From Microcaldota archaeon (GTDB lineage Archaea; Micrarchaeota; Micrarchaeia; Micrarchaeales; CABMGC01): a stretch of 62,912 nucleotides of DNA. The DNA lies in assembly GCA_027365175.1 (NCBI GenBank), contig DAHXNY010000004.1, positions 1-62,912 of the forward strand, read 5' to 3'. Of this stretch, positions 12,910 to 55,387 are shown piece after piece; within the stretch, counting starts at the first letter, position 1; each line of letters starts with the position of its first letter. The notes beneath the pieces were generated by a model, which made no database searches, was not told the DNA's origin, and was given only the letters and a program-made list of their open reading frames with translations. Position numbers and translations under genes: made by a program.

Positions 12910-14367
12910 ATGGCAGAGGAAACAAAGGTCAAGAAAGTGGAAGAGCTGCTGGAGAAGGGCATAAATCCGTATCCATATTCATACAAGAGGACAAATACGG
13001 CATCAGGCATAACATCGGACTTCAGCAGCAACGAAGGCAAGAGCGCAAGCATTGCAGGAAGGATAATACGCCTGAGAAAGATGGGCAGGATAATATTCAT
13101 CGATCTTCTTGACGAGTCGGGTAAGATACAGATAATGATACGCGAGGACGTGGTAGAAAAAGAGGCAGCTGAGATCCTGCAGTTCATAGACATAGGCGAC
13201 ATAATAGGGGCAGAAGGCACTGTTACGAAGAGCACAAGGGGAGAGATAAGCATAGAGGTAAGGAAAGCCGTTCTTCTTTCAAAGTCTCTGCGCACACTCC
13301 CTGACAAGTTCCACGGGATAAGCGATACCGAATTGAGATACAGGAAGCGTTACCTCGATCTTATAATGAATCCTGATGTGAGGAAGGTATTCAGGACAAG
13401 GACAAGGATAATGGACTATGTAAGGAACTTCTTCAATGCAAGGGGCTATCTTGAATTCGAGACTCCGATACTCCAGCCAACATACGGGGGAGCAAACGCA
13501 AAGCCATTCACGACGTATTACAACTCACTGGAATCCGACTTCTATCTGAGAGTGGCGAATGAACTTTACCTAAAGAGGCTGATAATAGGTGGTTTTGAGA
13601 GGGTCTATGAGTTTTCGAAGGACTTCAGGAACGAGGATATAGACTCATCGCACAACCCCGAGTTCACGATGCTTGAATTTTACGAGGCATACAAGGATTA
13701 CGAGGACTTCATGGAACTCATGGAGGAGATGCTCTCCGGGCTTGCAAAGCATATTAATGGCTCATACACCTTCACGTACCAGGAGAAGGAGCTCAACTTC
13801 AAGCCAAAATTCAAGAGGATATACTGGGTCGAGGAGCTGAAGAAGCTATCGGGAATAGACATATCAAAGATGACGGATGAAGAGGCGAAGAAGATAGCAA
13901 AGGAAGAGAAGCTTGATACCAGGATACTGAACAACTATCATGTTGCAGATTCGCTGTTCGACAAGTACATAAAGCCGACACTGGCAGACCCTACCTTCAT
14001 ACTCGATTTCCCGGCATACATGTGCCCGCTTACTAAAGACAAGCGCGGAAACAAGCTTCTGAGCGAAAGGTTTGAATTGTACATTAACGGTATGGAGGTC
14101 GCAAACTGCTATTCAGAACTTACAAATCCTATAGAGCAGAGGAAGAAGTTCGAGGAGCAGGAAGCTGAAAGGAAGAAGGGCGACGAGGAAGCGCCGCCTT
14201 CGGACAAGGATTTCATAGAGGCGATAGAGTATGGCATGCCTCCGACGGCAGGATGCGGAATAGGGATGGACAGGCTAGTGATGCTGCTGACAAACGTTTC
14301 ATCAATAAAGGAAGTGATGCTCTTCCCGGCGGTAAGGCCCGAGGAAAAGAAAAAACAGAATAAATAA
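12910..14367 (+). CDS. lysS: Lysyl-tRNA synthetase, class II
   Basis: The 485-residue enzyme is a class II LysRS. An OB-fold anticodon-binding domain (about 45-140, IAGRIIRLRKMGRIIFIDL) precedes the catalytic core with motif 1 in FLEFETPIL-type sequence, motif 2 (YEFSKDFRNEDID) and motif 3 (GCGIGMDRLVML). It charges tRNA-Lys with lysine; the matching tRNA-Lys(TTT) is at 8719. Most archaea use the unrelated class I enzyme, so a class II form is notable and was probably acquired by transfer. The start ATG follows GGGT by 4 nt. Confidence 0.95.
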   Translation: MAEETKVKKVEELLEKGINPYPYSYKRTNTASGITSDFSSNEGKSASIAGRIIRLRKMGRIIFIDLLDESGKIQIMIREDVVEKEAAEILQFIDIGDIIGAEGTVTKSTRGEISIEVRKAVLLSKSLRTLPDKFHGISDTELRYRKRYLDLIMNPDVRKVFRTRTRIMDYVRNFFNARGYLEFETPILQPTYGGANAKPFTTYYNSLESDFYLRVANELYLKRLIIGGFERVYEFSKDFRNEDIDSSHNPEFTMLEFYEAYKDYEDFMELMEEMLSGLAKHINGSYTFTYQEKELNFKPKFKRIYWVEELKKLSGIDISKMTDEEAKKIAKEEKLDTRILNNYHVADSLFDKYIKPTLADPTFILDFPAYMCPLTKDKRGNKLLSERFELYINGMEVANCYSELTNPIEQRKKFEEQEAERKKGDEEAPPSDKDFIEAIEYGMPPTAGCGIGMDRLVMLLTNVSSIKEVMLFPAVRPEEKKKQNK

Positions 14368-14458
14368 ACAGGCAGGCGTGGGAAAAGAATTATAAGGATA
14401 GCAAACTGAAGGTATAGCGTGCCAGGGTGGCAGAATCCGGTAACGCGCGCGCCTGGAA

Positions 14459-14470
14459 ATAATACCTGCA
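14459..14470 (+). other. tRNA-Ser intron 1 (position 37/38)
   Basis: The 12-nt insert ATAATACCTGCA lies between A37 and A38, the canonical site. A minimal bulge-helix-bulge can form: C32-T33-G34-G35 against CCTG of the intron (three pairs and one T-T mismatch), with bulges AA^A and CA^A and a 5-nt loop. Confidence 0.75.
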
Positions 14471-14502
14471 AGCGCGTGGCCTCACGGCCTTTTGGGTTCA
14501 AA

Positions 14503-14533
14503 TGAATCTTAGGAAATCCTAACTTTCTGAGAG
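14503..14533 (+). other. tRNA-Ser intron 2 in the T-loop (position 59/60)
   Basis: The 31-nt insert interrupts the T-loop between A59 and T60. TTCA of the loop pairs with TGAG at 14528-14531 (one G-T pair) to give the 4-bp central helix. Three-nt bulges AA^T and AG^T flank it. The intron itself folds as GAA/TTC, a 2x2 loop and TTAGG/CCTAA around AAAT. This is a complete archaeal splicing motif at a rare site. Confidence 0.85.
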
Positions 14534-14700
14534 TCCCAACCCTGGCGTATATTAATGGCTTGAAAGTGGATTACCAATGCGAAGAATAAAGGCTTTTAAA
14601 TCATTCTGTATTAATATAATGCACTGCAGTCAGTTAACGGCAGCTATTTTAACTGCGATTTAACAACGTTTAATTGATGCATTCTTACTGTGGTCATTAG

Positions 14701-15252
14701 ATGGCAAAAGAAGAACCGATAAAGAAGAAGGCGCACGAAGATGCAAAGCCCAAAGCTGCGCAGGGAATGATAGTCCGACTTGCAGGAAGGGACATCAACG
14801 GAGACAAGAAGATAGCCCAGGCAATAGGCGAGATAAAGGGCATAGGGCACACGATGTCGCATGCGCTTGCAATACACATAAAGAACGATCTTGGGATAGA
14901 CTACAACCTGCAGATAGGCCACCTTGACGATGCGAACATGGCAAAGATAGAGCAGGCAGTAAAGGATGCAACAGACTCAAAGATACCATCATATTTATTC
15001 AACAGGCGCATGGAGATGCAGTCAGGAAAGGACATGCACCTTGTCGGCACAGACCTCATAGTCAAGGTCAAGCAGGACATAGACGGCGACATAAAGCTGA
15101 TGAGCTGGCGCGGAATAAGGCACAGGACAAACCAGAAGGTCCGCGGACAGAGAACGAGATCCACCGGAAGGACCGGCACGACCATAGGGGTCATGAAGAA
15201 GTCTGCAAAGCAGGCTCAGGCGGCTGCAGGAAAGCCTGCAGAGAAGAAGTGA
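14701..15252 (+). CDS. rps13: Ribosomal protein S13
   Basis: The 183-residue protein is small-subunit S13, which sits in the 30S head and contacts tRNA and S19. It has VRLAGRDINGDKKIAQAIGE, a helix-two-turn-helix region (IKGIGHTMSHALA) and the basic tail with WRGIRHRTNQKVRGQRTRSTGR. A lysine-rich N-terminal extension of about 22 residues and an Ala/Lys-rich C-terminus are present. It opens the S13-S4-S11 operon, the conserved archaeal order. A promoter-like ggcttttaaatc lies at 14591-14602, leaving a leader of about 80 nt. Confidence 0.95.
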   Translation: MAKEEPIKKKAHEDAKPKAAQGMIVRLAGRDINGDKKIAQAIGEIKGIGHTMSHALAIHIKNDLGIDYNLQIGHLDDANMAKIEQAVKDATDSKIPSYLFNRRMEMQSGKDMHLVGTDLIVKVKQDIDGDIKLMSWRGIRHRTNQKVRGQRTRSTGRTGTTIGVMKKSAKQAQAAAGKPAEKK

Positions 15253-53786: not shown

Positions 53787-54158
53787 TCAGAAAAGTTCCA
53801 AATTAGGGATATTTGAAAAATGCTTTTTGTTGTTGGTATAAAGTTTGGCATTGTGATTTATGGCAATGGCAGCAATTATCGCATCCACTCTATCTATTTT
53901 CCTGCCTTTTATCTCTGTTTTCCATTCCAACTCTGCTGCTAACCTGGCATCTTCTTTATTGTAGTCTATGGTAGGAAGTTGAAGCATGTACGTAGTCTGC
54001 TTGGCATACTTTAACAGCCCATATAACACCTCTTGGATATTTATCGTAGTAGTATAAAAATTGTCACCGCTTTCCTCTATTTTCTTAAGCAATGCTTCGC
54101 CTGACATAGACTTTTTGTCGTATATCTCTATCAGAATGTCAGAATCAAGAATTATCAA
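53787..54158 (-). CDS. vapC: VapC toxin, PIN-domain ribonuclease
   Basis: The 123-residue protein has a PIN domain with the acidic triad: LDSDILIEIYD near the start, NIQEVLYGL with the Glu, and RVDAIIAAIA with the late Asp. VapC toxins cut tRNA or rRNA and stop growth when free of antitoxin. It starts at TTG inside the end of the antitoxin gene (4-bp overlap), so translation is coupled. Codons are more A/T-rich than the housekeeping genes, hinting at transfer. Confidence 0.88.
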   Translation of the reverse strand: MIILDSDILIEIYDKKSMSGEALLKKIEESGDNFYTTTINIQEVLYGLLKYAKQTTYMLQLPTIDYNKEDARLAAELEWKTEIKGRKIDRVDAIIAAIAINHNAKLYTNNKKHFSNIPNLELF

Positions 54159-54503: not shown

Positions 54504-54932
54504 CTACTGTCTAAATGGATTTGTCACTTTTATTCCTGGTATTCTGCCGAAATCCTTCTCGTCTTCAGTGAGTATCTCAGTTATAAAATTTTCCTTCATC
54601 GTTTCTGCTATGAGCATATCCAAAAGTGGCGTCTTGGTTCTATAAGAGTTGTCTAGTGCCCTGTTTAGAGTATCCGAAGTGTAGTTTATCCTGTACCAGT
54701 GTTTGGATGTTGTCAAAGATTTCATTATTTCATTTGTTTTGCCTATGGGCATTTCAAATTTCCTAGTAAGCGTGTTGTATGTCTCTACCAAGACCTGATT
54801 TGATATCACTCCAGGTATCTCGTTTTTATACACTTTTTCTATAAGGTGCTCGCATGTCTTTCTCTTAGATGGCTCTGAAGAATCAAACGCATAGCATATG
54901 ATATTCGTGTCAAAGAATATTTTATCTTTCAT
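54504..54932 (-). CDS. vapC: VapC-type toxin, PIN-domain ribonuclease (second module)
   Basis: The 142-residue PIN protein has FFDTNIICYAFD at the start (first Asp), QVLVETYNTL with the Glu and DMLIAETMKENF with the later Asp. It belongs to a different PIN subfamily from the neighbouring toxin. It overlaps the upstream antitoxin gene by 11 bp. Both modules point the same way and lie about 130 bp apart, which suggests two separate acquisitions into one site. Confidence 0.88.
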   Translation of the reverse strand: MKDKIFFDTNIICYAFDSSEPSKRKTCEHLIEKVYKNEIPGVISNQVLVETYNTLTRKFEMPIGKTNEIMKSLTTSKHWYRINYTSDTLNRALDNSYRTKTPLLDMLIAETMKENFITEILTEDEKDFGRIPGIKVTNPFRQ

Positions 54933-55200: not shown

Positions 55201-55243
55201 GTTTTTGTAAATAAATGTTCTGTTTTTGTAACTTAAGTATGTA

Positions 55244-55327
55244 CGCTGGGTACGAGAATCGAACTCGTGAAGGTCTTACGACCAAGTGGGTTAGCAACCC
55301 ACCGCCATACCTCTAGGCGAACCCAGC
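55244..55327 (-). tRNA. tRNA-Ser (anticodon GCT)
   Basis: On the minus strand GCTGGGT pairs with ACCCAGC. The anticodon stem GTGGG/CCCAC encloses loop TTGCTAA (anticodon GCT). A long variable arm GGTC/GACC and the T-stem ACGAG/CTCGT with loop TTCGATT are present. No intron is found. It lies about 60 bp downstream of the SRP RNA on the same strand; this linkage is common in archaea. Confidence 0.95.
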
Positions 55328-55387
55328 ACATGCAGCAGAAACCTGTCTTGCATAATGCGAATATGTAAGCTGGTTTGCATGTCGACT

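Follow-up and report, generated by a model that had tools for sequence, protein, structure and literature searches.

The stretch of DNA analysed here, called the window below (62,912 nucleotides; contig C24 of a genome assembled into 795,159 bases in 29 contigs, about 89% complete), carries between lysS (12910-14367) and uS13 (14701-15252) what we take, with a probability of roughly 95%, to be a functional and probably essential Micrarchaeales tRNA-Ser(GGA) gene interrupted by two protein-spliced archaeal introns. A tRNA-Ser(GGA) with two inserts had been read at this place in an initial annotation, the coordinates of which proved exact, and both insert positions are upheld by 56 homologues. 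The precursor gene occupies 14421-14547 on the plus strand, a span delimited exactly by the acceptor ends (GCCAGGG...CCCTGGC, then the discriminator G73), and the predicted mature tRNA is 84 nt long, with CCA not encoded. In full it reads GCCAGGG-TG-GCAGAATCCGGTAACGCG-CGCGC-CTGGAA[ATAATACCTGCA]A-GCGCG-TGGCCTCACGGCCTT-TTGGG-TTCAAA[TGAATCTTAGGAAATCCTAACTTTCTGAGAG]T-CCCAA-CCCTGGC-G. Exon 1 (positions 1-37; 14421-14458, plus strand like all that follow, anticodon GGA at 14455-14457) precedes a 12-nt intron at 37/38 (14459-14470); exon 2 (positions 38-59; 14471-14502) holds the long variable arm and the 5' strand of the T stem; a 31-nt intron lies in the T loop at 59/60 (14503-14533); and exon 3 (14534-14547) supplies T60, the 3' strands of the T and acceptor stems and the discriminator. 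The tRNA is of class II, with a variable arm of four base pairs and a weak D stem that contains one A-C mismatch. The predicted spliced junctions join GGTTCAAA to TCCCAACC in the T loop and CTGGAA to AGCGCG in the anticodon loop, for mature loops of TTCAAAT and CTGGAAA, respectively. A putative TATA-box-like promoter element, TTATAAGG (14390-14397, plus strand), precedes the tRNA by about 25-30 bases; the stretch GGAAAAG[A/G]ATTATAAGGATAGCAAACTGA is retained in five genomes of the same genus, while the sequence further upstream diverges.

Sixty related genomes were searched at the DNA level; all 60 gave matches, and 56 homologues could be parsed. These share ancestry, and their counts do not represent independent events, while the intron sequences differ greatly among genera. 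The anticodon-loop intron (CTGGAA^ATAATACCTGCA^A, 12 nt) is present in all 56, at 10-24 nt and most commonly 12. The initial annotation had called it canonical and near the minimum size. Canonical it is in its position, 37/38, but not in its motif: U33.U is mismatched in the central helix, CTGG/CCTG, and an intron-side helix is absent, leaving a 5-nt remainder, so that in place of the perfect 4-bp central helix and intron-side helix of a strict bulge-helix-bulge (BHB) there is a relaxed bulge-helix-loop (BHL). As to size, the relatives agree with the earlier remark, while no usable figure for the smallest archaeal intron emerged from a search of the literature; the shortest example seen among the homologues has 10 nt (L017, G044:C11:61565-61644, minus strand). 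At least three of the four central pairs are formed in 55/56 homologues, against a mean of 10.6 and a maximum of 24 after shuffling. The U33 mismatch is systematic across homologues, with position 33 paired in only 10 of the 56 and the other three pairs present in 54-55.

Each junction of both introns can be shifted by one base without altering the mature sequence, and the positions given here are preferred among the one-base shifts because of BHB geometry and the relatives. It is conceivable, given the mismatched central helix, that the 37/38 cut falls one base away from the site given or is made via a different motif; the relaxed BHL, in which 46/56 homologues leave U33 unpaired, and the identical mature RNA that would follow from a slide of one base speak for this, but all 56 homologues have A at position 38 and the same bases at loop positions 32-36, and an epsilon2 splicing endonuclease is reported to cleave a BHL precursor, pre-tRNA-Cys (PMC12397907), so we regard a displaced cut as unlikely.

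The T-loop intron (TTGGG-TTCAAA^TGAATCTTAGGAAATCCTAACTTTCTGAGAG^T-CCCAA, 31 nt) can form the complete BHB that had been described for it, with a 4-bp central helix (TTCA/TGAG) flanked by two 3-nt bulges (AA^T and AG^T), the intron on one side, and intron-side helices GAA/TTC and TTAGG/CCTAA. It is found in 45 of the 56 parsed homologues, with lengths of 13-43 nt. The central helix is complete in 43/45 of these (mean 0.8, maximum 5 in 2000 shuffles) and the first three intron-side pairs in 25/45 (shuffle mean 2.9, maximum 9); positions 54-59 (TTCAAA) and T60 are invariant in all 45 carriers, and the intron begins with A, T or C. The remaining 11 homologues are without the intron, and their T loop is exactly TTCAAAT, the predicted spliced loop. 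Retention of the insert as an enlarged T loop in the mature tRNA is very improbable: the insert has structure, and inserts recur in several relatives, but the length and sequence of the insert turn over while the BHB is kept at its ends, 11 relatives display the precisely spliced loop, and an enlarged T loop would disturb the elbow formed by the D and T loops, an established feature of tRNA structure. In a nearest-neighbour model the minimum-energy fold of the precursor (-54 kcal/mol), which pairs the T stem with the D loop, lies 11 kcal/mol below the cloverleaf with BHB (-43 kcal/mol); with the T arm folded by itself, the BHB exceeds the minimum by 2 kcal/mol. The global fold, in which the BHB does not appear, was set aside as a structural guide.

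The intact gene is recognised neither by ARAGORN nor by the Rfam tRNA model. ARAGORN reports a tRNA-Ser(GGA) once both inserts are removed in silico, but gives no call while either of them is still in place; precise removal of the T-loop intron is part of what restores a standard tRNA. Run with introns of 0-80 nt allowed, the program did not recover the gene and misnamed other tRNAs; it fails here because it assumes that introns lie in the anticodon loop only. A finder based on stems of the Ser type gave one gene in the real genome and none in six Markov-shuffled genomes, and T-loop-intron candidates with at least three central pairs numbered five in the genome versus 0-1 in shuffled ones. The other three serine isoacceptors are separate genes, with anticodons read from the sequence: tRNA-Ser(GCT) in the window (55243-55328, minus strand), tRNA-Ser(TGA) (L059, C11:32318-32438, plus strand), which ARAGORN misnames Ala(tgc) and which has a long intron with ATGATG(A)-like elements, and, outside the window, tRNA-Ser(CGA) (L065, G000:C27:18782-18892, minus strand). 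The case raised at the outset, that a better intact tRNA-Ser(GGA) might exist elsewhere, was pursued through all 795,159 assembled bases, and no second such gene was found; with the genome about 89% complete, one could sit in a gap. That the gene is a pseudogene or remnant with chance insertions, its function supplied by another gene, is very improbable; the failure of standard finders and the incomplete assembly speak for it, and it is countered by exons conserved in all 60 relatives, the intron-free ones included, by acceptor, anticodon, variable and T stems that remain paired, by the splice motifs kept in both inserts and by the lack of another tRNA-Ser(GGA) in the assembly.

One splicing endonuclease gene was found in the genome (P0001, on G000:C11), and it is of the three-unit (epsilon2) type that the initial annotation had suggested looking for. 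The 384-aa protein matches the ARMAN-2 enzyme (4fz2/9w2k) from residue 8 to its end at 384 (E=2.3e-148), contains two PF01974-type stretches and PF02778, and has the single chain of about 390 aa with N, catalytic and C units that characterises epsilon2. By alignment its catalytic residues are Y233, H251 and K279 and its ASL pair is Y157 and K158, all five being identical in 53/53 aligned genomes; they correspond to ARMAN-2 Y236, H251 and K282 and to Y160 and K161, where alanine substitutions abolish cleavage of one BHB and one BHL precursor (PMC12397907). Across a phylum-wide sample the endonuclease family is matched in 191/196 genomes, mostly by frames of about 380-430 aa. The RtcB ligase is also encoded in the genome (E=7e-166). 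Bulge cleavage followed by RtcB ligation is established for these enzyme families. Gene structure, conservation and the presence of both enzymes are direct observations, from which we infer the processing steps and their order. The TATA-like element just upstream would drive transcription of the precursor; the epsilon2 endonuclease would cleave the relaxed BHL at 37/38 and the full BHB at 59/60, both by in-line attack; and RtcB would ligate the exons to the 84-nt tRNA. Judged from the sequences, the 12-nt and 31-nt introns are almost certainly removed by this broad-specificity splicing enzyme.

The two-intron arrangement of tRNA-Ser(GGA) is already known in kind and is widespread among the relatives, since T-loop introns at 59/60, multi-intron tRNAs and the enzyme have all been published and the gene with both introns also occurs in ARMAN-2. 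Both 59/60 introns and tRNAs with several introns are described for Crenarchaeota and Nanoarchaeota (PMC4090602), multi-intron tRNAs for ARMAN-1 and -2 (PMC4033280), and T-loop introns together with the broad specificity of epsilon2 enzymes have been reviewed (PMC6379350), in keeping with the initial annotation, which had treated T-loop introns as a known phenomenon. The closest counterpart is that of Candidatus Micrarchaeum acidiphilum ARMAN-2; genome G043 is taken to be this organism or the same species because its endonuclease is identical to the crystallised ARMAN-2 enzyme (4FZ2). Its tRNA-Ser(GGA) has introns at the same two positions, and the anticodon-loop intron is of 12 nt in both, whereas its T-loop intron is of 22 nt and differs in sequence from the 31-nt intron here; a literature search found no published splicing account for this ARMAN-2 tRNA. 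The substrates described for the ARMAN-2 epsilon2 enzyme, pre-tRNA-Ile(UAU) with a BHB and pre-tRNA-Cys(GCA) with a BHL (PMC12397907), show the same two motifs with the same enzyme type, but in separate precursors rather than in one as here. The 59/60 introns of Crenarchaeota and Thermoproteales share the site, the BHB motif and a coexisting 37/38 intron (PMC4090602; PMC6379350), while in their hosts the place of epsilon2 is taken by an (alpha-beta)2 endonuclease that has a loop specific to Crenarchaea.

Beyond this gene, 59/60 introns were counted with a pattern for introns within GGG/CCC T stems, the reversed pattern serving as control. It matched in 53/60 relatives, from which 149 introns were used, with no match for the control; in the phylum-wide sample it matched in 125/196 genomes (control, 1 match), that is, in 90/103 within the window's order and 35/93 outside it. 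Plain loops that matched an earlier genus-level pattern by chance (e.g. G000:C11:252064) were excluded. The genome studied here has T-loop introns in tRNA-Ser(GGA), Ser(CGA), Arg(TCT), Arg(CCT), Ala(GGC) and probably Leu(CAA), and those of Arg(TCT) and Ser(CGA), both AAGACCTTCTGAAAG-like, are nearly identical despite the different tRNAs. The Ser(CGA) gene has an anticodon-arm insert of about 13 nt (AACTTTGGCGAAA) before CTCGAGA as well as its T-loop intron of 14 nt, the near-identical partner of which lies in tRNA-Arg(TCT) at C11:147697-147785 (minus strand). One T-loop intron type is common to Arg(CCT), Ala(GGC) and Arg(TCG) in G044, and one to Ala(GGC) and Arg(CCT) in G043. Intron pairs alike at shuffle p<0.01 make up, as plain counts, 19/174 within genomes versus 12/400 between genomes, short cores limiting the power of this comparison. 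As for the T-loop intron of Ser(GGA), in G005 it is similar to that of Ala(GGC) (p at the limit of 2000 shuffles, uncorrected for the 174 pairs), and in the source genome the likeness is partial.

That tRNAs of different identity within a genome share near-identical introns suggests transposition like that of Thermoproteales, where similar introns likewise recur at one site across the tRNAs of a genome; the present case differs in its Micrarchaeota host, its epsilon2 endonuclease and its focus on the T loop. Mapped onto the endonuclease tree, the distribution of the T-loop intron of Ser(GGA) calls for 7 changes between presence and absence, no fewer than 4 of which well-supported branches make unavoidable; the tree is that of a single gene with 27/50 inner branches weak, so that gains are not separable from losses on it. 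This T-loop intron is probably one of a class of 59/60 introns, common in the order, that is mobile or at the least turns over fast. We lean slightly towards a wider view, in which 59/60 introns would have spread by transposition in Micrarchaeota independently of Thermoproteales, with repeated gain, loss and replacement under cover of the epsilon2 enzyme, the Ser(GGA) intron being one such. No publication on tRNA intron transposition in Micrarchaeota was found, which is weak evidence of novelty, subscription papers lying mostly outside the search. Two genes of the Ser(GGA) type occur in a single genome, G024 (L300, G024:C148, and L009, G024:C64); the T-loop intron is present in one of them and missing from the other, and the pair may stem from duplication or from contamination.

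The only tRNA-Ser(GGA) gene found in this genome, required for reading UCC and UCU, is one that ARAGORN and the general Rfam tRNA model overlook, and genomes with such genes consequently appear falsely poor in tRNAs. The precursor is a naturally occurring substrate that combines a BHB and a BHL, suited to testing how epsilon2 with its Tyr-Lys loop handles both, and close relatives that either have the T-loop intron or show a perfect empty site provide material on the gain, movement and loss of archaeal tRNA introns.

Two further tRNA genes of the same genome are better read otherwise than ARAGORN names them. L060 (G000:C11:175756-175895, minus strand), called Arg(cct), is better read as a tRNA-Trp(CCA) with a long intron that holds ATGATGA, a box C-like element; box C/D guide introns are known from archaeal pre-tRNA-Trp. 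L061 (G000:C11:168569-168688, plus strand), called Ser(cga), reads as Met(CAT), and ATGATG(A)-like elements lie in its long intron. Elsewhere in the window, 53787-54158 and 54504-54932 (both minus strand) appear, from a reading of their translations by eye, to encode adjoining small proteins resembling PIN-domain nucleases of the toxin type.
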